34,604 bases of DNA from an uncultured Opitutia bacterium. GTDB taxonomy: Bacteria; Verrucomicrobiota; Verrucomicrobiia; Opitutales; Opitutaceae. The stretch covers positions 1 to 34,604 of the forward strand of contig CAIJFT010000045.1 of the NCBI GenBank assembly GCA_903820035.1, read 5' to 3'. The notes under the pieces are model-generated. The model searched no databases and was not told the origin of the DNA. It was given only the letters and a program-made list of their open reading frames with translations. Made by a program: the position numbers and the translations under genes. Below are positions 2,570-34,457 of the stretch, one piece after another. Each line of letters begins with the position of its first letter. Positions within the stretch are counted from its first letter, which is position 1.

Positions 2570-5230
2570 ATGACCGCCCGTACCTTACCGCGTTGCCGCA
2601 TGCCCGTAACTCGTCCGACTTCGCTATCCTCGCATCGCCTCTTGGCGGGGGCGTTTCTGATTACCGGGATCGTGGCGGCCGCTTTCCTCTACCGGCAGGG
2701 CGTCGCGCAGGAGTTCGCCGAGGCTGAGGCGGATTTCAGCAATCGTGCCCTGCATCGCCATGCGCTGAGCCGTGAGATTCTCGGTCATACTGAGGACGCC
2801 CTGTTCGGGCTCTCGGCGCTTTTTCAGTCCGGCGGAAAGGTGGAGTATCCGGATTTCGTGCGGGTGACGGGGGGCCTGCAGAGCAGGATTGAGGGCGTGC
2901 AGGCGGTCGAGTGGGTGCCGGCGATTTCCCAGGGCGAGCGCAACGCATTTGAGGCGTCGCTCCGGCTCGCGTATTCACCCCGGGATTTTTCGGTCACCGA
3001 GCTCGGGCCCGATGGTAAATTGCGCCGGGCCGCCGAGCGGCCGGTGTACTACCCGATCGCTTTTCTTCTGCCGGTCAAGGGCAACGAGGCGGCGCTCGGC
3101 TATGACTTGATGCTTGGGCCTACCCGCGACGTACTCGAGAGCGCCCGCTCGAGCCGGCAGATGCGCGTCACACCGCAGTTCCGCCTCGTGCAGGAAGCCT
3201 CGGATCAATTTGGCGCCGTGTTGATCTGGCCGGTGTCGCGCCCGGCCGCAGGAGCGACGGGCGAAGTCTTTGCTGGTTTTCTACAGTGCGTCTTCCGGAT
3301 CAGCGATCTGCTGGAGACGATGCGGAGTCGCGAGCCTGATACGTTTCTCGATATGCTGTTTATCGATGCATCCGAGTCGGAGCCGGCGCGGCGTACGCTT
3401 TATCACCGGCCGGCGGTGGGAGCGGCCTCGAACGGGGCGGCGCTGGAAGGGGAATTCCGGCGCGGGCTGCATCGGGAGTACAAGTTGCCCTTTGGCCAGC
3501 GCGACTGGCGCGTGCTTTTTCGGCCGTATTCCGGCTGGGTGGAGAGTCAGCGCAGCTCCGTGCCGCTGGCCCGTTCGGCGAGTATCCTGATGCTGGCAGG
3601 TCTGTTGGCGGGGCTCGCGGAAATTGCTGGCCGCCGCGCGGACTCGATCAGGCGGCAAGTGGCGAAACGCACGGCCGAGCTCGCGGAGAGCCGGCGGCAG
3701 ATGGCCCACATGCTGGAGGTACTGCCGGGGATGAGCTTTCGGTGCGCCTACGACGAACACCTGACGGTTCTTTTTGTCAGCGAAGGCGCGCTTGGGCTGA
3801 CCGGTTGGACCGCGGCCGAATTCCTTTCCGGCCGGGTGCATTTTCGCGACTGTATTCATCCCGATGATCTCCACCGGGTGCGGGAGATCACCCGCAGTGC
3901 TTTGCAGGACCGGCGGGCTTTCGAGGTCGAGTACCGGGTGCTGATGAAATCCGGAGCGGAGCGGTGGGTTTTGTCGCGAGGGAAGGGTGACACCGGTCCC
4001 GATAGCCAGGTGTTGGTGGAGGGGCTGGCGATCGACATTTCGGCGCAGAAAAACGCGGAGTCCGCCCGGCTTGCACTCGAGCGCAAGATGCTGGAGGGGC
4101 AGAAGCTGGAAAGCCTGGGTCTGTTGGCGGGAGGCCTCGCCCACGATTTCAACAACCTTCTCAGTGCAATTCTCGGCAGCGCCAGCATGGCGCGGATTTC
4201 ATTGCCGGAAAACGACCCGCTGGAATCACAACTGCGCACGATCGAGACGGCCTCGCTGCGGGCGGCGGAATTGTGCCGGCAAATGCTGGCCTACACGGGC
4301 AAGAGCCAGTTCGTCACCGAGGAGGCTAATTTATCGGCGCTCGTGGAAGACACCCTGCCGCTGTTGCAGGGCTCTTTGGGCCGGCAGGCCAATCTCCGTT
4401 TTCAGCTGGTGCGCGAGCTCTCGCCGGCCCGCGTAGACGCCACGCAAATCCGGCAAATCATCATCAACCTCGTGCTCAATGCCGCCGACGCGACGCGCGA
4501 GCGCGGCAGCGAAATTACCCTTTCCACCGGAATGATGGAGGCGGATCTCGCGCTGCTGGCCGGTTGCTCCGCGGGCGCGGGTTTGCCGCCGGGGCGGTAT
4601 GTTTACCTCGAGGTGGGAGACAACGGGGTCGGGATGAGTCCGGATGTGCTGGCCAAGATATTCGACCCCTTTTTCACGACCAAGCACTCTGCCCGCGGCC
4701 TAGGCCTCGCCGCCGTGCTAGGCATTGTGCGCGGTCACCGCGGCGCCATCTGGGTCCAGAGTGCGCCCTCGGCCGGCGCCCGCTTCCGGATTTTGCTCCC
4801 ACCCGCGCGCAAAGCCGCCGGCATGGTGCGGCCGTCGGAATTGACTAGCTTGCGGTTGCGGCACGAGCCCGTGCAGGTGCTGCTGGTCGAGGACGAGGAG
4901 CAGGTCCGCACCGTGACGCTCGAGATGATGAAGTTGTTCGGCTACACGGTTACGGCCGTGCCGGACGGCCATGCGGCGGTCGCCGCCTACCGCGAAAATC
5001 CCGGCCGATTCGACGTAGTCCTGCTGGATCTGATCATGCCCGGACTTTCCGGTGAGGAGACGCTCGCCACCCTGCGGATTCTTAATCCGGATGTCCGGGT
5101 ATTGCTTATGAGCGGTTACGGGGAAGCCGACCTACTGCGCCGGCTGGGCGGCGGGCCGACGCTGGGTTTTCTCGCCAAACCGTTCTCCCGCGAGACCCTA
5201 GAAAGCGGCCTGCGCCGTTTGGTGGGCTGA
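2570..5230 (+). CDS. Hybrid sensor histidine kinase: CHASE-PAS-HisKA-HATPase-REC
   Basis: This 886-residue membrane sensor kinase carries its own receiver. TM1 is at about residues 22-42. An extracytoplasmic CHASE-like sensor spans about 75-270 (the segment IEGVQAVEWVPAIS is typical), and TM2 is near 340-358. A PAS domain follows at about 385-495. The HisKA box LAGGLAHDFNNLLS has the phospho-acceptor His525. The ATPase domain shows the N box (NLVLNAADA), G1 (DNGVGM) and the GLGLA G2 box. The C-terminal receiver has VEDEE, phospho-acceptor Asp820 in LLDLIMPG and Lys in AKPFS. All catalytic residues are present. CHASE domains in other proteins bind small extracellular ligands; the ligand here is unknown. 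No partner regulator is adjacent, so phosphate must pass to a distant phosphotransfer protein. An ATG at 2600 is an alternative start. Confidence 0.93.
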   Translation: MTARTLPRCRMPVTRPTSLSSHRLLAGAFLITGIVAAAFLYRQGVAQEFAEAEADFSNRALHRHALSREILGHTEDALFGLSALFQSGGKVEYPDFVRVTGGLQSRIEGVQAVEWVPAISQGERNAFEASLRLAYSPRDFSVTELGPDGKLRRAAERPVYYPIAFLLPVKGNEAALGYDLMLGPTRDVLESARSSRQMRVTPQFRLVQEASDQFGAVLIWPVSRPAAGATGEVFAGFLQCVFRISDLLETMRSREPDTFLDMLFIDASESEPARRTLYHRPAVGAASNGAALEGEFRRGLHREYKLPFGQRDWRVLFRPYSGWVESQRSSVPLARSASILMLAGLLAGLAEIAGRRADSIRRQVAKRTAELAESRRQMAHMLEVLPGMSFRCAYDEHLTVLFVSEGALGLTGWTAAEFLSGRVHFRDCIHPDDLHRVREITRSALQDRRAFEVEYRVLMKSGAERWVLSRGKGDTGPDSQVLVEGLAIDISAQKNAESARLALERKMLEGQKLESLGLLAGGLAHDFNNLLSAILGSASMARISLPENDPLESQLRTIETASLRAAELCRQMLAYTGKSQFVTEEANLSALVEDTLPLLQGSLGRQANLRFQLVRELSPARVDATQIRQIIINLVLNAADATRERGSEITLSTGMMEADLALLAGCSAGAGLPPGRYVYLEVGDNGVGMSPDVLAKIFDPFFTTKHSARGLGLAAVLGIVRGHRGAIWVQSAPSAGARFRILLPPARKAAGMVRPSELTSLRLRHEPVQVLLVEDEEQVRTVTLEMMKLFGYTVTAVPDGHAAVAAYRENPGRFDVVLLDLIMPGLSGEETLATLRILNPDVRVLLMSGYGEADLLRRLGGGPTLGFLAKPFSRETLESGLRRLVG

Positions 5231-22709: not shown

Positions 22710-24914
22710 ATGATCCACTTTCCCGTCGCCTTCGCGCTCTTGCTGCACGTGCTGTTTTGGGGCGCGGGCGCGGCGATGCTAACGATGCCTCCGCGCTGGC
22801 GCCGATTCTGGCCGGCGCTGGTGGTTCCCGCCGGTCTCGCCTTGCAGTCCGCGATGGTTTGGGCCGGGGCCCATGCAGGGTGGCGCGGCACGAATGCCTA
22901 TGGACTTTGGAGTGAGTTCATTCCGCTCGTTCTGTTGGTGGTGGCGGTGGCGCGAAACGGGATCCAAAGGACGTGGGTCGAAGTCGGCCGGTTCGGCCTC
23001 GTTTGGGCATTGGTGGTCGGATGTCTCGCTTTGCTGGTGATGCCGTTGGCTTTGGCTTCAAAGTCACTGACGACCCTCTCCCTCGGCAGTTGCGATGCGG
23101 CCGACTACGCGGCGGGAGCGCGGGTTCTCATGGAGTTCGCGCAGACGGACCGGGAGGGGTTCCTCGGGCTCACGGAGGTCGTGCGCGTGCAATCGGTCGA
23201 CAACTTCTTCGACTACTGGATTTACCTGAATCATTTTACGCCTTCGGCGTTGATCGCCCTAAACGGCTCCGTGCTGCGCTGCGCGCCGCATGAAATCACG
23301 ACCGTGTTCACGGGGGTTTTGGTGGCGGGACTGTTGCCGATCGTGTTTTGGGTTTCGCGTGCGGTGGTCGGGCACAGCGGCGGGGTGAGCCTGATCCTCG
23401 CGGGATTATTCGGGTTGAGTCCCGTCCCATGGTACGCGTACGCCCACGGGGCACCCGGTCAGCTGCTGGCGGCGCAGTCCGTTGCATTGCTCACCTGGTG
23501 TGGTGTGGCGCTTTGGCGGATACGGCTGTCATGGCGTCGCGGGCTGGAGTTTGCCGCGGTGGCGGGAATCGGCTACTGGCTCGTGCTGGGCAGTTACAAT
23601 TTCTTTCTGCTGGTTTGCCTCGTGCCGGCGGTGGCCTACGCCGGCGGACTGGCGCTCTGGCGGAGGGAGTGGGCTAAGTTCGCGCGTTGGACCGGGGTTC
23701 TCCTGCTCCCGTTACTGGCATGTAGCGGACTGTTATGGGCGCGGGTCGAGGGCTTGGCGGAACGATTCTCCCTGCTCCGTGCATATGATTTCGGTTGGCG
23801 CGTTCCGGCACTATCCGCCGAGGGTTGGCTCGGGATGGTCCGGGGGCCAGACCTTGAGGCGTGGGAGGCATTCGGATTGCGCTGGATTTGTAGTGCCGGC
23901 GTCGTGGCCCTGTTGGTTTGGGTCTTGATCCGCGAGGCCTCCCGCCGCCCGCGCGCGGTGTGGACTGTCTTTGCGCTGACGGTGCCGGTCCTGGCGCCTT
24001 ACTTGGCGTTGCAAGCCCGCGGGGTGATGTTGGGCACGAATGCCAGCTACGACGCCTATAAGGTTTTCGCGGTCTTTCAGCCGCTGTTGTTGCCGGCGCT
24101 TTGCTGGTGGGCGACGCTGCGTTTTGGGCGGCGCCTCCACGAGTGGCTGCTCGTCAGCGCGGCCGGCGGCGTAGTGGTGCTCTTTAACGTGATGGCGTGT
24201 GGCATGTTCGTCTGGCACCTGAGCGCCCCGTCGCTCCGGGTGGATGGGCAACTGGTCCAATTGCGCCGGATCGAGGCGATGGCTGACGTGAAATCGGTGA
24301 ACATGATTTTCGCGGAGCGCGACATGTGGTCGCGGCTGTGGGCGAGCGCTTTTCTTCTGCGGAAGGAGCAATATTTCCTCACCGATACGTATGAGGCGCG
24401 TTGGAGCACGCCGCTGCGCGGCGAATGGGATCTTGAAGCCGGCTTGGTGTCCTTGCGCTTGGCGGGAGAAGGCCGGCGGCAGATTACTCCCCGCTACGCC
24501 CTGGTCGATACGCGGCATCCCGGTTTCTTGCGAGTAAGCCCGAAGGACGGATGGTATCCCGAGGAATCGGCCGGCCGCTCGGTGGAGCGTTGGCAGTGGA
24601 CGAAGGGAGACGCTACTTTGCAGGTGGAGAACCCTCAGCCCTATGCACTGGAGCTCAGCTGTGCGATCGATGGATGGAGTCCAGTGCCGCTCGTTATATC
24701 GATGAGCGGGGAATCCAGTGCCGCCGAGGTCGATACTGAAGTGAGCGTCAGCCGTGGCGTGCGCCAATTTAAGCCGATTTCGGTTCCGCCTGGTAAGTCG
24801 CTCCTGAAGCTAAAACTTTCCCGACCGCCGACTGCAGTGTCGGGTGATCCGCGGTTACTCGGCGTATCGGTATTTTGCTTTTCGGTCACCCCAGCGGTGC
24901 CAATGGCGCGTTGA
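22710..24914 (+). CDS. Large polytopic membrane protein with C-terminal beta domain
   Basis: The 734-residue product has about twelve hydrophobic segments up to residue ~510, then ~225 soluble residues. A long extracytoplasmic loop after the third or fourth segment contains LGSCDAADYAAGARVL and NFFDYWIYLNHF, acidic loop motifs of the kind seen in GT-C enzymes and related glycan-assembly proteins. The C-terminal portion (about 605-734) carries RVSPKDGWYPEE, RWQWTKGDATLQV and RQFKPISVPPG, and matches the end of the protein at 17596. I do not recognise a named family for the membrane part; a glycosyltransferase or polymer-assembly role is inferred. It follows the methyltransferase gene and precedes the epimerase gene by 48 bases. 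Confidence 0.75.
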   Translation: MIHFPVAFALLLHVLFWGAGAAMLTMPPRWRRFWPALVVPAGLALQSAMVWAGAHAGWRGTNAYGLWSEFIPLVLLVVAVARNGIQRTWVEVGRFGLVWALVVGCLALLVMPLALASKSLTTLSLGSCDAADYAAGARVLMEFAQTDREGFLGLTEVVRVQSVDNFFDYWIYLNHFTPSALIALNGSVLRCAPHEITTVFTGVLVAGLLPIVFWVSRAVVGHSGGVSLILAGLFGLSPVPWYAYAHGAPGQLLAAQSVALLTWCGVALWRIRLSWRRGLEFAAVAGIGYWLVLGSYNFFLLVCLVPAVAYAGGLALWRREWAKFARWTGVLLLPLLACSGLLWARVEGLAERFSLLRAYDFGWRVPALSAEGWLGMVRGPDLEAWEAFGLRWICSAGVVALLVWVLIREASRRPRAVWTVFALTVPVLAPYLALQARGVMLGTNASYDAYKVFAVFQPLLLPALCWWATLRFGRRLHEWLLVSAAGGVVVLFNVMACGMFVWHLSAPSLRVDGQLVQLRRIEAMADVKSVNMIFAERDMWSRLWASAFLLRKEQYFLTDTYEARWSTPLRGEWDLEAGLVSLRLAGEGRRQITPRYALVDTRHPGFLRVSPKDGWYPEESAGRSVERWQWTKGDATLQVENPQPYALELSCAIDGWSPVPLVISMSGESSAAEVDTEVSVSRGVRQFKPISVPPGKSLLKLKLSRPPTAVSGDPRLLGVSVFCFSVTPAVPMAR

Positions 24915-26013: not shown

Positions 26014-27312
26014 TCAGGCCTTCTTGACCACTTCTCGCGGGGCAATTTCGACTTGGCTGGGAGCTGATAGCTCTTTGGCTCCCTTGGCGCCGAGTTCAGC
26101 GAATTTTCGGGCGCCGGGAAGAAGCGCGCCCTCAAAGGAACCGACTGCAGTGTTGTAACCACGAAGCGCGCTATCGAGGCCGCGTCCGATCTTGTCGAGG
26201 TTGTCGGCGAAGCCGGCCACGCGATCGTAAAGAGCGCGGCCCAAAGCACTGATTTCGTCTGCGTTCTTGGATACTGATTCCTGGCGCCAGCCGTAGGCGG
26301 CGGCCTTGAGCAGGGCGATGAGGGTTGTGGGGGTTGCGAGCAAAACCCGCCGGGTGAGCGCACGGTCGATCAATTGGTTGTCGGTCTGCAGTGCGGCGGT
26401 AAGGAAGTGGTCGCCGGGAAGGAATAGCACGACAAACTCCGGCGCCGGCTGAAATTGCTCCCAATAGTTCTTTGCTCCGAGTGCATCGATGTGCGCCCGA
26501 ACTTTGGCGGCATGTTCGATCATGCGGGTTGCGCGTATGGACTCGTCGGTCGTGTCGCCGGCTGCTCGGAATGACTCGAGCGGGGCTTTGGCGTCGACGA
26601 CGATACGTTGACCTCCTGGTAACCGCACAACCAAGTCGGCGCGAAGGCCACCGGATGTTTCCTGTTCGGTAAAGTCGCAATACGGCAGCATGTCCGCCAT
26701 CTCCACGACGCGCCTTAGTTGTAGCTCGCCCCAACTGCCGGCATAGGTTGAGGAGCGAAGGGCTGTGGAAAGTTTGGTGGCTTCGCTTTGGAGCTGCATT
26801 TGGGCTGTATTGAGTGCCTTCAGCTGCTCGCCGAGAGCACCATACGCTCCGGCGCGGGCTTTCTCGATTTCATTGATCTTGTTGTCCACCTTCTCGAGGG
26901 AATCGCGGAGCGGTTTTATAAGGGCTTCGACCGCTTGTTTCCGTTGTTCGAGATCACCGGCGGACTGTTGCTGGAGTTGGCCGAACGACTGCGTCGCCAG
27001 CTCAAGAAAGTCGGCGCGGTTGGTTCTTAGGGCGTCGGCCGAGATTGCCTTGAATTCATGGATTAGTCTTTCGCGGGCGGACTTCTCCGCTTCAAGTTGT
27101 GTGCTGACTTGGGCGTTAAGTACCGTGAGTCGGGTGCATTCATTCCGCAGGTGCGCTAGTTCGGAGTTTAGCCGTTGCCCATCGGTTTCGCGGGCCCGAA
27201 CGCGCTCGAGCAAGGCGGCCTCACGGGCCCGGAGAAAAAACCAGACTAAGGCGGCGGTAAAGAGTGCGGAGGCAACGGCGGCCAAGAGCTGATTCACACG
27301 GGCAAAACTCAT
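26014..27312 (-). CDS. rmuC: RmuC-family protein (putative recombination-limiting nuclease)
   Basis: The 432-residue product has an N-terminal membrane anchor (about residues 9-27), a long coiled coil (about 28-185) and the RmuC domain. The domain shows STYAGSWGELQLRRVVE, then TSGGLRADLVVRLPGG, the nuclease-like core IVVDAKAPLES with Asp and Lys, and FLPGDHFLTAALQTD. RmuC limits inversion at short inverted repeats in E. coli and its core resembles PD-(D/E)XK enzymes; the molecular role here is taken from that family. The ATG at 27312 is preferred over a TTG at 27333. It diverges from the signalling operon across 129 bases. Confidence 0.93.
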   Translation of the reverse strand: MSFARVNQLLAAVASALFTAALVWFFLRAREAALLERVRARETDGQRLNSELAHLRNECTRLTVLNAQVSTQLEAEKSARERLIHEFKAISADALRTNRADFLELATQSFGQLQQQSAGDLEQRKQAVEALIKPLRDSLEKVDNKINEIEKARAGAYGALGEQLKALNTAQMQLQSEATKLSTALRSSTYAGSWGELQLRRVVEMADMLPYCDFTEQETSGGLRADLVVRLPGGQRIVVDAKAPLESFRAAGDTTDESIRATRMIEHAAKVRAHIDALGAKNYWEQFQPAPEFVVLFLPGDHFLTAALQTDNQLIDRALTRRVLLATPTTLIALLKAAAYGWRQESVSKNADEISALGRALYDRVAGFADNLDKIGRGLDSALRGYNTAVGSFEGALLPGARKFAELGAKGAKELSAPSQVEIAPREVVKKA

Positions 27313-27441
27313 GGGTGAAATCGTGTAGGGCAACCTTCGATGCGCGCCTTGACACCTATGAGACCCCGCTGCAAACAGCGTTATGCTGTGCAGCCGTCAG
27401 CTGCGCGCTCGATTTAGAACCACTTCACCACCAATCCTAGC
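27313..27441. promoter_or_regulatory. Divergent intergenic region between rmuC and the signalling operon
   Basis: This 129-base region must hold the promoter for the operon starting at 27442, since all later gene junctions overlap. It contains a perfect TTGACA at 27349-27354 on the plus strand, but no good -10 at 16-18 bases; a TATGCT at 27382-27387 is 27 bases away. The element is not assigned. Confidence 0.35.
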
Positions 27442-28593
27442 ATGCTGACCCAGAAATCCACGGCTTTGGCGCCGACGGAAGGTACCGAAAAACCTCCCGT
27501 TCTGGTGGTTGACGACGAGTATGGTCCGCGTGAGTCGATCGCGTTCAGTCTTTCGGGCGAGTTTTCTGTGGATACGGCGGAACGAGCCAAGGAGGCGCTG
27601 GGAAAGCTCAAGCTGCGGCAATACTCCGCGGTCGTAATGGATATCCGAATGCCCGAGATGGATGGGATCAGGGCGCTGGAGGAGTTACGCAAAATCGACC
27701 CGTATGTTTCGGTGATCATGTTGACCGGATACGGCACCCTGCAAACTGCGCAACAGGCCATGGTGAACGGCGCCAACCAATATTTGCGCAAGCCGCCGGA
27801 TATTGCAGAGTTGGTCGAGTCGGTGCGGAAGCAAACGCAGGCAACGCGATTGCGTCGCACGCAGGCTCAAGCCGCGGCTGAGGCTCAGGGGATGAATGAG
27901 ACGCTCCGGCGCGAAATCGAGCAAAACGAGCCCCAGATTTGGCAGGCGCGGGCATCCGTAGAGCTCGTTCATGATCTGAACAACCCTTTGACGGTTGTCA
28001 TCGGTTACGCGGCGTTGGTTGCCGATGAGGCTGCGGTGCTTGCCCGACGCGATCCTGAGGCGGCAAGGAAGGTGATCGAGTATGCTACGATGGTGGAAAA
28101 GGCGGCTGAGTACTGTCACCACCTGTCAGAGAATTGGCGGCATGCGTCCAAGCAGGCTCTGGAGTTTCAGCGCGTGGATTTGGTCAAGATTGCGAAGGAA
28201 GTAAGGGACGTAATCTTCTTCGGTAATGCTGCAATTGAATGCATCGGTTTGGATGAGGCTTGGGTGCGTGGCTCCAAGTTCGAGCTCATGCGCGTGCTCC
28301 AGAATTTGTTTAAGAACTCCCTGGAGGCGGGAACCACCCGGTTGATGGCTTCGTTTACCCGCCAGGGTGATCAGCTGGAAATGACGATCGCCGACAATGG
28401 TGCCGGCATGGATCCTGACCGGGTAAAAAAAGCGCTTCATGGAGGATATAGCAGCAAGGCTACAGGCACCGGACTGGGCTTGAGTATTTGCCGCCACCTG
28501 GCCGGTACGCATGGCGCGACTTTTTCACTCGAATCTGCACTCGGCAAGGGAACGACGGTTCGCCTCGTTTTCCCCGTGGCTTCGCAGGGATGA
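27442..28593 (+). CDS. Receiver-first histidine kinase (REC-HisKA-HATPase)
   Basis: This 383-residue soluble signalling protein has a receiver domain at about 20-135 with acidic pair VVDDEYGP, phospho-acceptor Asp67 in VVMDIRMPEMDG, the switch Thr in MLTGYG and Lys in LRKPPD. A linker helix (about 135-165) leads to the kinase part: the H box ELVHDLNNPLTVVIGY with His177, the N box LQNLFKNSLEAG, G1 DNGAGMD and G2 GTGLGLS. Every catalytic residue is present. With no membrane segment or sensor domain, it probably takes its signal through its own receiver. The stop overlaps the next gene's start (ATGA at 28590-28593). The ATG at 27442 gives a 20-residue disordered start. Confidence 0.9.
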   Translation: MLTQKSTALAPTEGTEKPPVLVVDDEYGPRESIAFSLSGEFSVDTAERAKEALGKLKLRQYSAVVMDIRMPEMDGIRALEELRKIDPYVSVIMLTGYGTLQTAQQAMVNGANQYLRKPPDIAELVESVRKQTQATRLRRTQAQAAAEAQGMNETLRREIEQNEPQIWQARASVELVHDLNNPLTVVIGYAALVADEAAVLARRDPEAARKVIEYATMVEKAAEYCHHLSENWRHASKQALEFQRVDLVKIAKEVRDVIFFGNAAIECIGLDEAWVRGSKFELMRVLQNLFKNSLEAGTTRLMASFTRQGDQLEMTIADNGAGMDPDRVKKALHGGYSSKATGTGLGLSICRHLAGTHGATFSLESALGKGTTVRLVFPVASQG

Positions 28594-29792
28594 AGCGACG
28601 GCGAGTCAAAATCACCGGGCTTGGATTTGTAACACCGGCGGGCGTGGGCCGAGATGAGTTTCGTCGGGGGATTTTGGAACCTATCAGCCGGGTTGGGTTG
28701 CTGAGCCGCTTTCCGGATGAGGCGGGCGCGTTTGTCGGCGCCGAGGTCAAAGGGTTTAAGCTCGAGCGCTATTTGAAGGGAGTGAACAGTAAGCGCATGC
28801 CGCGGCATACGCAGTTTGCGCTGGTCGCGGCTGTGCAGGCGGCGGAGGATGCGGGTCTGACGTTACCTATGCTGCGTAATCGTGGCGCGCTGGTAATGAT
28901 AGGCGCGACTCTGATGGATTTCGGGACGATCAATAAAGGTGTGGACTTGATCCTGCGCCATGGGCCTGTCAGTGCTCTGCCCACTTCGGTGGCGAGCGCA
29001 TTGGTGAGCGGAATTGGCGCGGCGGTGGGGGAATTGATCGGCGGCACGACGCGGACGTTGTCGCTACAAAGCGCTTGTTGCTCCGGCTTGGATGCAATTG
29101 GAAAGGCGGCAGACATGATCGCCACGGGAGAGGTGGATATTGCGGTGTGTGGCGGCACGGAGGCGCCATTGCATTTCCACCCAATGCTCGAGCTGAAGTT
29201 GGCGGGATTGGCACCGGGAAACCCGGAATTTCCGGAACGGCAGTGCCGCCCATTCGATCAGTGGCGGACTACGGGCGTCATCGGCGAAGGCGCCTGTGTG
29301 ATGATTCTCGAGGCCGAGGGACAGGGCGGGGCAGCGTACGCCCATATCGAAGGGCATGGCTATGCATCCGATGCTTCGGATCAGCCGTGTGGCGGGTTAC
29401 TTGAGGCAATGCGCCTTGCGGTGGGTAATGCCGGGTTGAGACCGCACGAAATCGAAGCCGTCAGCGCGTGGGGGCCGGGGCATAAGACGATTGATGCCGC
29501 CGAGGCCATGATGATGATGCGTTTCTTCGGCAAGAATTTGGGGGAATTACCGGTATACTCGTTGAAAGGAGCGGTCGGTAATCCGCTTGGAGCGGCAGGT
29601 GCGATTCAGGCCGGTTGCGCTGCGTTGGGATTGAAGGAAGGGTTCCTCCCTCCGACGGTAAACTGGACGTATCCCGATCCAGCGTGTGCATTGAATCTAA
29701 GTCCGGTCGCCCGATTTGTTAGCCACGATAACGTACTCATAAACGCCCACGGCTTGTCCGGCACGAACGCATGCTTGGTGCTTCATCGCTAA
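28590..29792 (+). CDS. Beta-ketoacyl-synthase-like protein with altered active site
   Basis: The 400-residue thiolase-fold protein resembles FabF-type condensing enzymes: MKRRRVKITGLGFVTPAG start, nucleophile elbow SLQSACCSGLDAIG (Cys163), CRPFDQWRTTGVIGEGA, LKGAVGNPLGAAG and the final NAHGLSGTN. The nucleophile Cys163 and the structural Lys326 are kept, but the two histidines that decarboxylate malonyl-ACP in FabF are replaced: the AHGT-type motif reads SAWGPGHK (Trp294) and the GH(L/P)xGAAG motif reads GNPLGAAG (Asn331). Normal FabF chemistry is therefore unlikely; acyl binding or acyl transfer remains possible. It sits within a signalling operon, coupled by ATGA overlap upstream and a 22-base overlap downstream. 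No acyl carrier protein gene is adjacent. Confidence 0.87.
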   Translation: MKRRRVKITGLGFVTPAGVGRDEFRRGILEPISRVGLLSRFPDEAGAFVGAEVKGFKLERYLKGVNSKRMPRHTQFALVAAVQAAEDAGLTLPMLRNRGALVMIGATLMDFGTINKGVDLILRHGPVSALPTSVASALVSGIGAAVGELIGGTTRTLSLQSACCSGLDAIGKAADMIATGEVDIAVCGGTEAPLHFHPMLELKLAGLAPGNPEFPERQCRPFDQWRTTGVIGEGACVMILEAEGQGGAAYAHIEGHGYASDASDQPCGGLLEAMRLAVGNAGLRPHEIEAVSAWGPGHKTIDAAEAMMMMRFFGKNLGELPVYSLKGAVGNPLGAAGAIQAGCAALGLKEGFLPPTVNWTYPDPACALNLSPVARFVSHDNVLINAHGLSGTNACLVLHR

Positions 29793-31789
29793 ATTTTAGT
29801 TCGACTGTCGTGATTGCGGTCGCGGCCTCAATCGTGGGCTTTGCCGCTTTCTGGTCGAATCCGCAGCGCGCCGTCAATCGCGCATTTTTCGCGGCCTCAC
29901 TTCATGTCGCGCTCTGGCTGATCTGCTTGGATCAGGCGCTTCAGGGGGGGGTGAATGGGCAGTTCTGGATGCGTACGACCTCGCTAGTAGGAGCATACAT
30001 TGCTCTTCCGATATGGTTCATTAAAGAAGCCATCGCGAGTGAAGTGTGTTCGGTGCTGAGTGTATTCATTAAGGGTGCTGCATGGGTTGTTTCATGCACT
30101 ATGCTCGCTGCTATTACGTTAACTGAGTGGTTTGTGGCATCAGATCAAAAAGAAGGGAGGTTGTCGTTTAATTTAGGATACTATGCATATATGGCTGGTT
30201 TGCTGATTGTATATGCGCTTCTTTGCCGACAAACTCTTCGGCAAATGCGCGCAAAAAACGGAGTTAGGCGTATGGAGTTGCAGATTATTCTGCTTGGTGG
30301 AAGTGCGGCAGCTTTCGTCGTTATTTTGCTTATGGCGATGCGTGCCGTATTGCATATGCCGATATTGGTTAGAATTCAGCCTTTTATTGTCATGGTTTTT
30401 TACACCGTCACAGTAATAGCTATCACGACAAGCCGGGTGTTTAACGCGCGTCAGATATTGATGGTTGCCATCCAGAAACTCTGTTTGGTTACGATCGTGG
30501 CGGTAGCAGCGTATGCTATTGATATGCTATTAGCGGAAATGTTGTCTGGGCCGGTAGCGTTGATGGTAACCGTTTCGTTCGCGCTTTGGCTGGCTGCGAT
30601 GGTGAAAGAGTCGCTGGATAGGATCTTCGAATTCTATCCGCAGGGGAATTCGGCACGGCACGCCGCCTACGCCGCGGCACAACGGGAACGCCGAATTGAT
30701 AAATTGGAAGAGGCTTTTGTGGCGGTTCTAGCTGGCTGGGGTCATTCTGAAAGGGCAATTATTCTCTCGGGAAATAGGCGGTCAGTCATTGGCGGATCAA
30801 TTGAGCTATTGGACACTAGCACGGAATTGAAGGCGATCCAGCAATTGCGGTGGGCAACTCCTGAGCGGTTGGCCCGCGAGCGACCAACCCCCGAGCGCCT
30901 CGCGCTTCAGCGCTTTTTGCATGAGAAACAGCTCGGGGTAGTTGTTATAGAGGAGGGACTTGCTTTAACCGTTGTCTTGGGAGTGGGAATTAGTGCATCC
31001 CGACGTCCATTTACCTATCCGCAGGTCACTCAGTTAATGGAGTTGGCTTCGATTATCGAAGGCGCACTTGAACGGGCTCACTTTTCGGCCAAAATTCAGC
31101 ATACCGAGCAACTCGCCACGGTGGGGTTGCTCGGCGCCAGCCTTGCCCACGAAATTCGCAATCCATTGGTGTCGATAAAGACATTTGTGCAACTCTTGCC
31201 GACTCACTATCAGGACCCCGCCTTCCGTCAGAAATTCTTTCGTTTGATCGGGGATGAGGTCACTCGAATTGATCAACTTACTGACCAGCTCTTGGATCTG
31301 GCCGCTCCGCGGGCCTATTCTGCGCAATTGCTCGAATTGCATCCATTGCTAAGTGCCAGTATCAATTTGGTTGCCGCAAGAGCAGCGAATCGCGAAATAG
31401 AGCTGCTTACGGATTTTAAGGCCGAGCCAGACCGAGCGTTTACTGACGCATCTGCAGCTAAGCAAGTAATGCTCAATTTATGCTTTAATGCCATGCAAGC
31501 GGTCGATGAGGCGAATTCGAAGGAGAGATGGGTTAAGGTTTCAACGCGGAATACCTCCGTCGGGCTTGAGATGTCAATTTCGGACAGTGGACCGGGAATT
31601 TCACCGGAAATTAGGCCGAAATTATTCCAGCCATTCCAGACAACAAAGTCATCAGGATTTGGACTCGGACTTGCGATTTGTAGCGATATTCTCGGCAATG
31701 TTCATGCTTCCATTTCAGTCGACCCTCATGAAGTCGGTGTTGGGGCTGTTTTCCGAGTAAATTTCCCATGTCAACCCTTGTCATCCTAG
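29771..31789 (+). CDS. Membrane histidine kinase with multi-TM N-terminal sensor
   Basis: The 672-residue product has an N-terminal half (about 10-265) with eight or nine hydrophobic helices. The opening NPQRAVNRAFFAASLHVALW recalls the HisKA 7TM sensor region also seen in PrsK-type kinases of PEP-CTERM systems. A GAF-like region (about 300-430) follows. The kinase core has H box GASLAHEIRNPLVSIKTF (His460), N box VMLNLCFNAMQAV, G1 DSGPGISPE, the F box KLFQPFQTTKSSG and G2 FGLGLAI, all intact. It should autophosphorylate. Its stop lies 22 bases inside the next gene, mirroring the 22-base overlap at its own start. Base composition is lower in GC than in the preceding genes. No purine-rich ribosome site precedes the ATG. 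Confidence 0.9.
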   Translation: MLGASSLNFSSTVVIAVAASIVGFAAFWSNPQRAVNRAFFAASLHVALWLICLDQALQGGVNGQFWMRTTSLVGAYIALPIWFIKEAIASEVCSVLSVFIKGAAWVVSCTMLAAITLTEWFVASDQKEGRLSFNLGYYAYMAGLLIVYALLCRQTLRQMRAKNGVRRMELQIILLGGSAAAFVVILLMAMRAVLHMPILVRIQPFIVMVFYTVTVIAITTSRVFNARQILMVAIQKLCLVTIVAVAAYAIDMLLAEMLSGPVALMVTVSFALWLAAMVKESLDRIFEFYPQGNSARHAAYAAAQRERRIDKLEEAFVAVLAGWGHSERAIILSGNRRSVIGGSIELLDTSTELKAIQQLRWATPERLARERPTPERLALQRFLHEKQLGVVVIEEGLALTVVLGVGISASRRPFTYPQVTQLMELASIIEGALERAHFSAKIQHTEQLATVGLLGASLAHEIRNPLVSIKTFVQLLPTHYQDPAFRQKFFRLIGDEVTRIDQLTDQLLDLAAPRAYSAQLLELHPLLSASINLVAARAANREIELLTDFKAEPDRAFTDASAAKQVMLNLCFNAMQAVDEANSKERWVKVSTRNTSVGLEMSISDSGPGISPEIRPKLFQPFQTTKSSGFGLGLAICSDILGNVHASISVDPHEVGVGAVFRVNFPCQPLSS

Positions 31790-33546
31790 CAACAAAGGAC
31801 GATACTCTTGCTGACGCTTGGGAGCGGCAATTGTTGCCAGGGAAGATTGCGTTAAGACTCTCTCAGCAAGATTTTCCTTCGGGTGTTTCGGTCTCTTTTA
31901 GCGCGGTAGTTGTTCTGGACGCCGCGATGGAGAACCAACTGCCAAGGTCACTTGTTCAATGTGCGACTATTTTCGTTGGAGAGCCAAGTACGTTGCCTTT
32001 CGAACAAGCGCGAATGGCCGGTAGAGCTAAAATATATCTTTCCTACCCAGAAAGTTTGATTCGCCTACGAGAGCTGCTCCCCCTCGTTGAGGAGGTAGCC
32101 GAAAAGCATTCGTTAATTGCAATGCTTAAGGAACAGGGTGTGCGAGGTCATCAAATGACGCAGTTTCAGCGATCGACCTCGGCTGAAACTGTGGAACTTT
32201 GGGATTTCTTCGAAAGTGCAGTCGAATGTATCGATGATCGTAATAGACTACTTATCGAATTTAGGCGGGCGACACGGCAGTCACTGCGTGCGTCTCATTC
32301 GGTGCTTTTTCTCCGAGGGCCGGAAGGCTTTCAGGCCGATCTTGGAACATCATTTTTCCCATTAGATGATCCATTGGTTCGATATTTCGAGTTTCAGCCC
32401 ATGATTGTTGATGGAATGACATGGCCTGGAGCAGTAGATCCTGTTGCAGAGATGGCGATACGGAATCGTCTGGCGCTTTGGGTGGCGCGAATGCTCGTGC
32501 CCATACACGATAATGGTCGTCTCTTAGGCTTGGTGGCACTAGGCGTAAGAGAGGATGGTCAGAATTATGACGAAACGGACAGAGAGCGCGCAGTATATCT
32601 GGCTAGGTTGCTCCGGCATCTACTGGGGAAATCAGCTCAATTTACCCGCTTAAGCCAAGCCGTGGAAAAGGCGACAATTGGAGTAAGATACCTACCTGGG
32701 ACATTGGTTTTGGGATCAGAAGAAAGCGCTCCGCGTAATGTGCCACTTGTTGTGAGAGACATTATTGGGCGCGCACGTCGATCCAGAGATATTTGTCGTG
32801 TCGCACCAGCTGAAGGACAGCCGTTTCGAGTTAGTGCAGGTATAATTACTGAGAACGGGGGTGTTTGGGCGTATTGGGAAGAGGCTAGCAATGAAGTTCA
32901 TGAATCGTTGCAGCGCGAACGCGCAAGTCGGCGAGATTTATTGCGTGAACTTGCACTTACCTTAAGTCACGAGCTGAGTAATTCACTAGTATCCCTCGCA
33001 AGTTTTCGTCAGTCAAATGGTGATCTCGCTCTGCCGCGTAGCTTTATCGAAACCATGAAGGCTGATGTATCACGGTTGGAAGCGCTAAATAATAACATTT
33101 CAGTTATGCAGGCACTTCATGAGGCTGTGCCTACCTCAATTGATGCTAGGGATTTGGCTCAGCGGGTTGGAATTCCATTGGGTGTTTCGGTTGAAGTAGG
33201 TCCCGATCCAATAATGATCAGAGTGAGTGCGCAACTTTTGGAGTATGCTATTAGTGCATTGCTTCAGGCGATTTTGGCTGGATCTGAGCACATCCAATCA
33301 AACCAGTTAATAATGAAGGTGCGATTTGCGGGTGTGGCTGAAGATTCCTCTGCCTTATTTTCAATCAGAGGCAAATTCATTGAACTCGAAGGGGTTTTCC
33401 CGGAACCGACAATAAATGCGGTGCCAAGTCAGGGGCGTTTAAGCGTATTTATAGCTAAGGAGATATTGGCAATTCATCGAGGTGAAATTCATGCTGGGCC
33501 GGGTATCGATAGAACTGAGATTTTGTTTTCAGTCCGCGGCATGTGA
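31768..33546 (+). CDS. Histidine-kinase-like protein with GAF domain and degenerate ATPase domain
   Basis: The 592-residue product has no membrane segment. Residues 1-120 look like a receiver fold (TLVILATKDDTLADAW, VVVLDAAMEN) without a full phosphorylation site. A GAF-like domain spans about 150-290 (RQSLRASHSVLFLRG to PIHDNGRLLGLVALG). The dimerisation helix keeps an H box, LALTLSHELSNSLVSL (His401). The ATPase domain is eroded: the N-box position reads YAISALLQAILAG without the metal-binding Asn, and no DxGxG or GxGLG box is found, though the closing helix IAKEILAIHRGEIHA remains. It is probably a phosphotransfer or allosteric partner of the intact kinases in this operon rather than an active kinase. 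It overlaps both neighbours. Confidence 0.78.
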   Translation: MSTLVILATKDDTLADAWERQLLPGKIALRLSQQDFPSGVSVSFSAVVVLDAAMENQLPRSLVQCATIFVGEPSTLPFEQARMAGRAKIYLSYPESLIRLRELLPLVEEVAEKHSLIAMLKEQGVRGHQMTQFQRSTSAETVELWDFFESAVECIDDRNRLLIEFRRATRQSLRASHSVLFLRGPEGFQADLGTSFFPLDDPLVRYFEFQPMIVDGMTWPGAVDPVAEMAIRNRLALWVARMLVPIHDNGRLLGLVALGVREDGQNYDETDRERAVYLARLLRHLLGKSAQFTRLSQAVEKATIGVRYLPGTLVLGSEESAPRNVPLVVRDIIGRARRSRDICRVAPAEGQPFRVSAGIITENGGVWAYWEEASNEVHESLQRERASRRDLLRELALTLSHELSNSLVSLASFRQSNGDLALPRSFIETMKADVSRLEALNNNISVMQALHEAVPTSIDARDLAQRVGIPLGVSVEVGPDPIMIRVSAQLLEYAISALLQAILAGSEHIQSNQLIMKVRFAGVAEDSSALFSIRGKFIELEGVFPEPTINAVPSQGRLSVFIAKEILAIHRGEIHAGPGIDRTEILFSVRGM

Positions 33547-34457
33547 AAACTAGTTCTTCCGAAATCATATCCCGTTTCGGTGATTGGGTTGTGCGAAGTC
33601 GGGCCATTCAGGCAGCTCTTATTTTCGGCTCAAGGGCACGTGGTCTTGATAGCTGTGCACGAATGGACAGCTATTCTGATGTGGATTTTCAGGTTGTAAC
33701 TTATCAACCGAGTATTTTCGCTGAAAGCACTTGGGTGCCAATCATTGACACCTCTGGGATATTAACCTACGTATATCGTTCTGCTTCTGGGGGAGTTTCG
33801 AAGGCAACGATCTTACTGAAATCGGGAATCGAAGTTGATGTGGTTGTCGTCCCGGCGATTCGTCTGCATATTGCTCGAATTGCTGTTAAGTACGGTTTGC
33901 ATCACCGTATTCCTGTTATTGCCGCTTCACTCGATGAAATGGCCACTGTTATGAGTGGAGGATATCGAATGTTAAAGGGTGGACGACAGTGGGAGAAATT
34001 TTATTCGGCTGTCGTTTCGGAAATTCGTGGTGCGCGCCTTACCGATTGCGATGTGTGCAAAATTGCTGATGAGTTTGTATGCGATTTTCGCTGGATATCT
34101 AAAAAAGTGATGAGAGGAGAGTTAATCGCTGCCCAGCGTGTCCTTCATGCCTCGTTGCTAGAGAAAAACTACCGTATTCTACATGAGCTCCGGCTTAGGA
34201 GGTCTTTAACTTCTTTTCGTGATGCTCGACGAATTGAAATACTATTGCCGCCGGATGATTTGGAGATGATCTCGATTGGTTCAACCTTGCGATCCGATGA
34301 TCTACAAGTATCTGCGCGAAAGGCAGCTCAGGCTATGCGCGTGTTAGTTGCAGAAATTGTTGGGGACCGTTGGATTTGGCCACAGGAAATTTATCAGGAG
34401 CTGCTTGGTCCTACTCGGGAAGCCGGCGGTTCGATCGACTTGCGTACAGGACCCTAA
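33543..34457 (+). CDS. Nucleotidyltransferase, ANT(6)-like fold
   Basis: The 304-residue product has the polymerase-beta-type nucleotidyltransferase signature: LIFGSRARG (Gly29-Ser30), the paired acidic residues YSDVDF (Asp46, Asp48) and a third carboxylate in IEVDVVVVP (Asp99). The helical C-terminal half, with DEFVCDFRWISKKVMRGELIAA, resembles aminoglycoside 6-adenylyltransferases (ANT(6)/AadK). The catalytic triad is complete, so it should transfer a nucleotide. Its place at the end of a signalling operon makes antibiotic modification only one possibility; AMPylation of a protein or small molecule is equally open. The GTG start overlaps the previous stop (GTGA). Its stop overlaps the convergent ABC gene by four bases. 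Confidence 0.82.
   Translation: MKTSSSEIISRFGDWVVRSRAIQAALIFGSRARGLDSCARMDSYSDVDFQVVTYQPSIFAESTWVPIIDTSGILTYVYRSASGGVSKATILLKSGIEVDVVVVPAIRLHIARIAVKYGLHHRIPVIAASLDEMATVMSGGYRMLKGGRQWEKFYSAVVSEIRGARLTDCDVCKIADEFVCDFRWISKKVMRGELIAAQRVLHASLLEKNYRILHELRLRRSLTSFRDARRIEILLPPDDLEMISIGSTLRSDDLQVSARKAAQAMRVLVAEIVGDRWIWPQEIYQELLGPTREAGGSIDLRTGP

Follow-up and report, generated by a model that had tools for sequence, protein, structure and literature searches.

Bacterial regulation has to be linked to the supply of acyl groups but, to our knowledge, few proteins are known to read the acyl state directly. The described systems that come closest to the locus reported here each resemble a part of it. Systems of the HisKA/NtrB-NtrC kind share kinase domains with it. 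In the CqsA/CqsS and LqsA/LqsS systems, an acyl-enzyme-like gene adjoins the gene of a kinase with multiple transmembrane (TM) segments; enzymes of the CqsA/LqsA type are pyridoxal phosphate (PLP) synthases. FabF (β-ketoacyl-acyl carrier protein synthase (KAS) II) and the ketosynthases of type II polyketide synthases have the same full-length fold with catalytic Cys and Lys as one of its proteins, and one of them, AmcF, a distant relative of that protein, is reported to function as a heterodimer in making cispentacin, alongside a partner protein and a carrier protein (PMC10698177). Decayed kinases acting as phosphotransferases are likewise described for PhyT (PMC5898713) and ChpT (PMC3433190). 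Here, we describe a five-gene operon in a stretch of 34,604 nucleotides (the window; contig CAIJFT010000045.1) from an uncultured Opitutia bacterium of the family Opitutaceae, in which a FabF-fold protein (KS) and a putative nucleotidyltransferase (NT) are joined to three kinase-like proteins (RecHK, memHK and pHK). No description of a locus of this type was found in the open-licence papers searched.

With a probability of roughly 0.55, the operon represents, within Opitutaceae, a signalling locus that spans the phylum and combines an operon-specific KS with two adjacent sensor kinases.

Results

The five genes lie on the forward strand of the window, which is the entire contig C45 of a 6.05-Mb assembly (G000) and ends 147 bases past NT:

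RecHK, 27442..28593, + strand, 383 residues: receiver (REC), dimerisation and histidine phosphotransfer (DHp) and HATPase_c domains; receiver-first histidine kinase
KS, 28590..29792, + strand, 400 residues: FabF-fold protein
memHK, 29771..31789, + strand, 672 residues: multi-TM sensor histidine kinase
pHK, 31768..33546, + strand, 592 residues: degenerate receiver, GAF, DHp and a domain like the catalytic and ATP-binding (CA) domain
NT, 33543..34457, + strand, 304 residues, GTG start: nucleotidyltransferase of LinB/ANT(6) fold

An earlier note on this DNA had described five translationally overlapping genes with no DNA-binding regulator among them. Both points were borne out: the open reading frames (ORFs) give junctions of 4, 22, 22 and 4 bases, with the KS start taken at ATG 28590 (the mechanical ORF begins at TTG 28488), and the five genes do not make up an NtrC sigma-54 system.

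Relatives of the operon were compared in a set of 33 fetched loci and 72 from an alignment-based search; a query with a single window protein had found none. The 72 are all from Verrucomicrobia (Opitutaceae, Opitutae/Opitutia, Opitutus, Cephaloticoccus, Lacunisphaera, Oleiharenicola and unspecified Verrucomicrobia), and other phyla were covered by two peptide patterns of pHK. Duplicates were removed by a 200-base stretch of pHK, leaving 82 distinct loci (L192 and L210 are pieces of one assembly), and gene presence was called by BLAST thresholds. The window's gene order is complete in 54 of these 82 Opitutaceae loci. Seven further loci hold all five genes with NT inverted between RecHK and KS, two (in G030 and G191) have RecHK, memHK and pHK alone, and 18 are cut by a contig end. 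In the anomalous one, L195, the rmuC-like gene is accompanied by NT and by a pHK split into two pieces, and neither KS nor memHK was found there; this state reflects either decay or an assembly error. The overlap of memHK and pHK is 22 nucleotides in 48 of the 75 distinct loci measured and 13 or 16 nucleotides in 22 more. Dozens of loci preserve the order, and 48 of 75 the 22-nucleotide overlap, so the arrangement is not due to chance.

Protein searches found NT in 23 and pHK in 25 of 57 genomes, the window's own included; one of the 25 (G007) has merely a weak match of 78 residues. KS and NT occur together: the identical three of 25 chosen family genomes have both, and among 288 genomes sampled from the phylum NT and the operon-type KS (at least 621 bits) are found in the identical 12. 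Order conservation was looked for, and homologues with unrelated neighbours everywhere, which the earlier note had named as a refutation of its hypothesis, were not found in the genomes searched; the comparison of loci supports the genes as one conserved unit. In the operon-free genome G007, a short pHK-like stretch (L254:9435-9827, 57 bits) lies beside the sister system described below and is a possible remnant.

The alignment search with KS across the 288 genomes (E<=1e-85) extended the comparison beyond the family. Matches of 293-363 bits were obtained in 25 genomes outside Opitutaceae, nine of which have a weak pHK match within 5 kb on the same contig. Together with five loci picked from weak pHK matches, and therefore enriched for linkage by design, these gave 30 wider loci. 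KS is present in 29, and in 28 of the 29 it is followed by a relative of memHK and then by a relative of the third kinase (HK3); the odd one, L286, is contig-cut, and in L301 memHK is in two pieces. The commonest overlap of memHK and HK3 is 4 nucleotides. In 28/28 aligned rows (L303 lies outside that set) HK3 has the motifs of an intact kinase, and its tested member has GAF, PAS, HisKA and HATPase_c domains; the tested memHK relative has PAS, HisKA and HATPase_c, with a sub-threshold match to HisKA_7TM. A cluster of NtrC-type regulators (REC, Sigma54_activat and HTH_8) is represented in 14 of the 30 loci. The gene fadL is found in 20 (tested member 183.5 bits to PF03349), and in 19 of these it is divergent from KS and adjoins RecHK. 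Because the operon resembles a phylum-wide locus with the NtrC-type regulator (14/30) and fadL (20/30), its odd composition has an evolutionary explanation.

One might suppose instead that KS and NT share a transcript with an ordinary kinase set as cargo, unconnected to what it does. In G030 and G191 the kinases occur without these two genes, and in seven loci NT is on the other strand, which would suit such a view, but the order KS-memHK-HK3 persists in distant families (28/29), NT keeps its place in the locus even when inverted, and in the genomes searched KS and NT of the operon type turned up nowhere but at the operon or on contig-cut pieces of it. We regard this explanation as very unlikely.

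Some of the wider loci carry features of their own. In L275 and L276, of the same class, KS has Tyr for the first catalytic His, HK3 is intact and a receiver protein of 146-148 residues lies a few genes on. The third protein of L303 (7916-9445), also of the same class, has neither the usual His motif nor the ATPase domain, and an NtrC-like gene adjoins it; it is a possible intermediate. Beyond RecHK, L285 (13247-17197) encodes an FAD (flavin adenine dinucleotide)-linked oxidase and a protein in which an N-acyl amino acid synthase (FeeM/GNAT) domain is fused to a class V aminotransferase; the two might together make a signal, and cluster c7 recurs in L277, L280, L286 and L289.

Sigma-54-like sites were sought with a -24/-12 consensus on the coding strand, in a stretch of up to 300 bases before each gene, and compared with dinucleotide shuffles; this superseded an earlier scan with two core offsets and simple shuffles. 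Sites with at most two mismatches precede 10 of the 20 fadL genes (0.66 expected) and sites with at most one mismatch precede five (0.06 expected). No comparable excess was found at the other genes of the wider loci (KS 3/29, memHK 1/28, HK3 0/28, regulator 0/13, RecHK 2/24). At the same limit of two mismatches, the Opitutaceae loci gave 1/26 for RecHK, 2/27 for memHK, 2/33 for pHK and 1/32 for NT, with about one expected for each; KS was slightly above chance (4/25 against about one). No sigma-54-like site was found in the 108-base gap before RecHK in the window. The excess over chance at fadL suggests that the wider locus most likely switches on this gene through sigma-54, and the locus probably controls the uptake of fatty or oily molecules. 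In the Opitutaceae genomes tested, fadL was absent at the threshold used from six of the nine that bear the operon, G000 included.

The earlier note had recognised two intact kinases, one receiver-first and one in the membrane, and the domains and kinase residues of both are present. RecHK matches Response_reg (89.7 bits) and HATPase_c (73 bits) in Pfam, with HisKA slightly under its cut-off (25.1 against 26.9). D67, T95 and K117 of the receiver and H177 of the DHp domain are invariant in 26/26 orthologues, in keeping with a sensor kinase of the HisKA type. In the wider loci L277, L285, L289, L293 and L304, Arg replaces the phospho-acceptor His of RecHK (VRDLRNP), with the receiver residues kept. 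For memHK, HisKA (45.1 bits) and HATPase_c (69 bits) are above cut-off, H460 and the N and G kinase boxes are kept, which again indicates a HisKA sensor kinase, and a simple hydropathy scan found seven hydrophobic segments in the first 280 residues; a role as membrane sensor is plausible from these features. Its cytoplasmic kinase part resembles that of PrsK of the XrtA/PEP-CTERM system (TIGR02916), but at 82.5 bits against a cut-off of 300 the identification with PrsK was rejected. Elsewhere in the window, an ORF of 886 residues (2570-5230) shows weak, kinase-like similarity to memHK (28% identity, 68 bits).

The window copy of pHK has a sub-threshold GAF match as its sole Pfam hit, and its orthologue in L106 passes the GAF cut-off. 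Its N-terminus has a receiver-like fold without the receiver Lys, D51 being kept in most rows. The DHp residues H401, E402 and N405 (H-E-x-x-N) are invariant in 34/34 rows, and the CA-like domain is without the ATP-binding N, G1 and G2 boxes, which bears out the description of pHK as a kinase with a lost ATPase domain. This is the residue pattern of DHp phosphotransferases, a phospho-acceptor His in the DHp hairpin joined to a degenerate CA domain. With the phospho-acceptor His retained and no usable ATPase, pHK could plausibly relay or modulate phosphate. It resembles Spo0B, ChpT and PhyT in being kinase-derived, with the phospho-acceptor His kept and the ATPase domain degenerate; it differs from them in carrying a degenerate receiver and GAF. 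Alternatively, pHK could be a purely allosteric pseudokinase like DivL, scaffolding or gating RecHK or memHK and carrying no phosphate. A scaffold would not need the H-E-x-x-N motif, which is nevertheless invariant, and we consider this alternative doubtful.

KS matches the ketoacyl-synt domain (98.8 bits) and the C-terminal domain (56.9 bits) of Pfam and thus has the fold and domains of FabF/KAS II. C163 and K326 are invariant, as is H298 (25 rows / 24 rows). The first catalytic His of FabF is W294 in KS and the second is N, S or T at position 331, both being replaced in 25/25 Opitutaceae rows; the FabF controls have Cys-His-His in 14/14. The loss of the decarboxylating histidines, already proposed in the earlier note, is therefore confirmed. 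A role in decarboxylative condensation is thereby less likely than one in binding or transferring acyl groups. In the wider loci, Cys is kept in 29/29, the first His in 27/29 and the second in 0/29, Asn standing there in 26. A maximum-likelihood tree of FabF and operon KS rows, from which other ketosynthase families were left out and whose root is not fixed, splits 14 housekeeping FabF from 54 operon KS by a 100/100 branch, and within it the Opitutaceae KS form a single group at 100/100. KS differs from FabF in its place in the tree and in its lost histidines. The AmcF model is matched at 114 bits against a cut-off of 325, and the carrier protein and partner of AmcF are not among the five genes.

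For NT, the window copy has sub-threshold nucleotidyltransferase matches only (PF04439, 13.1 bits against 22), and 10 of 25 orthologues match PF04439 at E<=0.01, one of them at 48 bits. A full-length structural match and the catalytic residues place it in the LinB/ANT(6) fold, so the likeness to ANT(6) holds by these features, though below the PF04439 cut-off. Identity to the ANT(6) streptomycin and LinB lincosamide nucleotidyltransferases is 12-15%. G29, S30, D46, D48 and D99, the GS, DxD and D residues, are invariant. These residues, together with Cys163 and Lys326 of KS, argue for retained chemistry in both proteins. NT is the fastest-evolving protein of the operon (median 36% identity).

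This rate might be expected of a signal-diversifying enzyme, and it bears on a second explanation, in which a diffusible signal derived from acyl groups would be produced by KS, with NT as tailoring enzyme, and perceived by memHK; in the wider form, FadL would take it up. KS directly precedes the multi-TM kinase in complete loci, and most wider KS retain Cys and one His and have Asn in place of the second His, a triad like the Cys-His-Asn of KAS III enzymes. In five of the 30 wider loci, a gene beyond RecHK falls into a protein cluster whose tested member has an N-acyl amino acid synthase (FeeM) domain and a class V aminotransferase. The Opitutaceae KS, however, is without both decarboxylating histidines in every row, no carrier protein was found among the five genes by Pfam, and in G030 and G191 the kinases persist although KS and NT are absent. 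The enzyme fold of CqsA/CqsS and LqsA/LqsS differs from that of KS. Synthesis of a signal by KS is possible in our judgement, at a low probability.

A sister set of three genes, memHK2, a REC/pseudo-kinase and a winged-helix protein (Trans_reg_C), is exemplified by L117:15399-19555 and stands beside the operon in eight loci (L108, L110, L112, L116, L117, L118, L126 and L145). The window's own genome carries it elsewhere (G000 C176, which is L248). Matches at E<=1.7e-58 were found in 22 of 57 genomes, all of the window's genus. Four genomes (G005, G007, G011 and G026) have the set without an operon match, and in six (G001, G017, G020, G029, G030 and G032) the operon or its kinases occur and no strong match to the set was found. 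We thus take the sister system as separate though related, and the disagreeing distributions led us to reject it as the supply of a DNA-binding regulator for the operon.

Upstream of the operon are the following features:

Divergent gap, 27334..27441: 108 bases between the rmuC-like gene and RecHK
rmuC-like gene, 26014..27333, - strand: conserved syntenic neighbour

The rmuC-like gene and an ABC-ATPase-like gene downstream of the operon, both named from a reading of their sequences and not from a family search, show conserved synteny; they were considered as parts of the system and taken as neutral neighbours. A role in anti-phage defence was also rejected, PADLOC returning just two weak matches, both to NT (19.6 and 18.8 bits), and nothing for RecHK, KS, memHK or pHK. 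Further upstream, an ORF of 734 residues (22710-24914) before an epimerase-like gene is matched by neither Pfam nor NCBIfam models at the thresholds applied.

Discussion

The best reading of the operon is that it may be a rewired two-component network responsive to acyl groups or hydrophobic compounds, in which pHK would be a phosphotransfer hub like ChpT or PhyT. The wider form comprises KS, a 7TM-PAS kinase, a REC/GAF/PAS kinase and, in about half of the loci, an NtrC-type regulator; RecHK and, in most cases, fadL lie upstream in divergent orientation. In it FadL, for outer-membrane uptake of fatty or hydrophobic compounds, would be switched on via sigma-54. KS may be a cytosolic partner that binds or transfers acyl groups, held as a thioester on Cys163, and it would either report acyl supply to the kinases or make a ligand for them. 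In the Opitutaceae the regulator and fadL are absent from the locus, the third kinase has a DHp with the phospho-acceptor His and no working ATPase motifs, KS is without both catalytic histidines and NT is present. By parsimony, which is not proof, these changes are losses plus a gain in a derived state. The likeness of the wider form to NtrB-NtrC systems extends to the sigma-54 regulator and the sites before fadL; the loci differ from such systems in that KS is a fixed extra partner, that each has two or three kinases and that the Opitutaceae operon is regulator-free.

Signalling would start at memHK and pass through the receiver of RecHK to pHK, a phosphotransferase or phosphatase hub. This relay is favoured because decayed kinases acting as phosphotransferases are known. 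The output could be enzymatic, with KS and NT acting on a small molecule, or could run via a regulator elsewhere, for example that of the sister system. The scheme of membrane sensing and relay put forward in the earlier note survives in part: the residues of memHK, RecHK and pHK make sensing and relay or modulation plausible, and the wider locus with its regulator and fadL was not foreseen. We further propose, tentatively and as a clearly less secure step than the link to the wider locus, that KS has turned into a cytosolic acyl-thioester sensor that signals to the kinases and drives sigma-54-dependent fadL in the wider form, and that Opitutaceae gave up the DNA-binding output, turned the last kinase into a hub for phosphotransfer and came to use NT for a non-transcriptional output instead. 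A fatty or hydrophobic cue is the simplest guess in view of the fadL link.

Several observations weigh against this picture. A gene of the NtrC cluster is missing from the retrieved stretch of 16 of the 30 wider loci, and 10 of the 20 fadL genes have no upstream site with at most two mismatches. Elsewhere in the genome fadL does not track the operon, being present in three of nine operon-bearing and four of five operon-free Opitutaceae genomes. FadL-family proteins also carry other hydrophobic molecules, and the case for acyl sensing is built on the fold of KS, its Cys163 and the link to fadL. In five wider loci RecHK has Arg for its His, and L303, having both an NtrC-like gene and an ATPase-less protein, indicates that the kinase can decay where the regulator is still present. 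L195, finally, runs counter to a strict coupling of KS and NT.

The locus represents an enzyme-derived ketosynthase fixed to sensor kinases across many families of one phylum. Its catalytic residues differ between the form with a transcriptional output and the form without, which offers a natural series for testing how an enzyme may turn into a sensor. The same series also allows study of how a two-component system loses its regulator, and it offers a testable function for several protein families without an assigned role.

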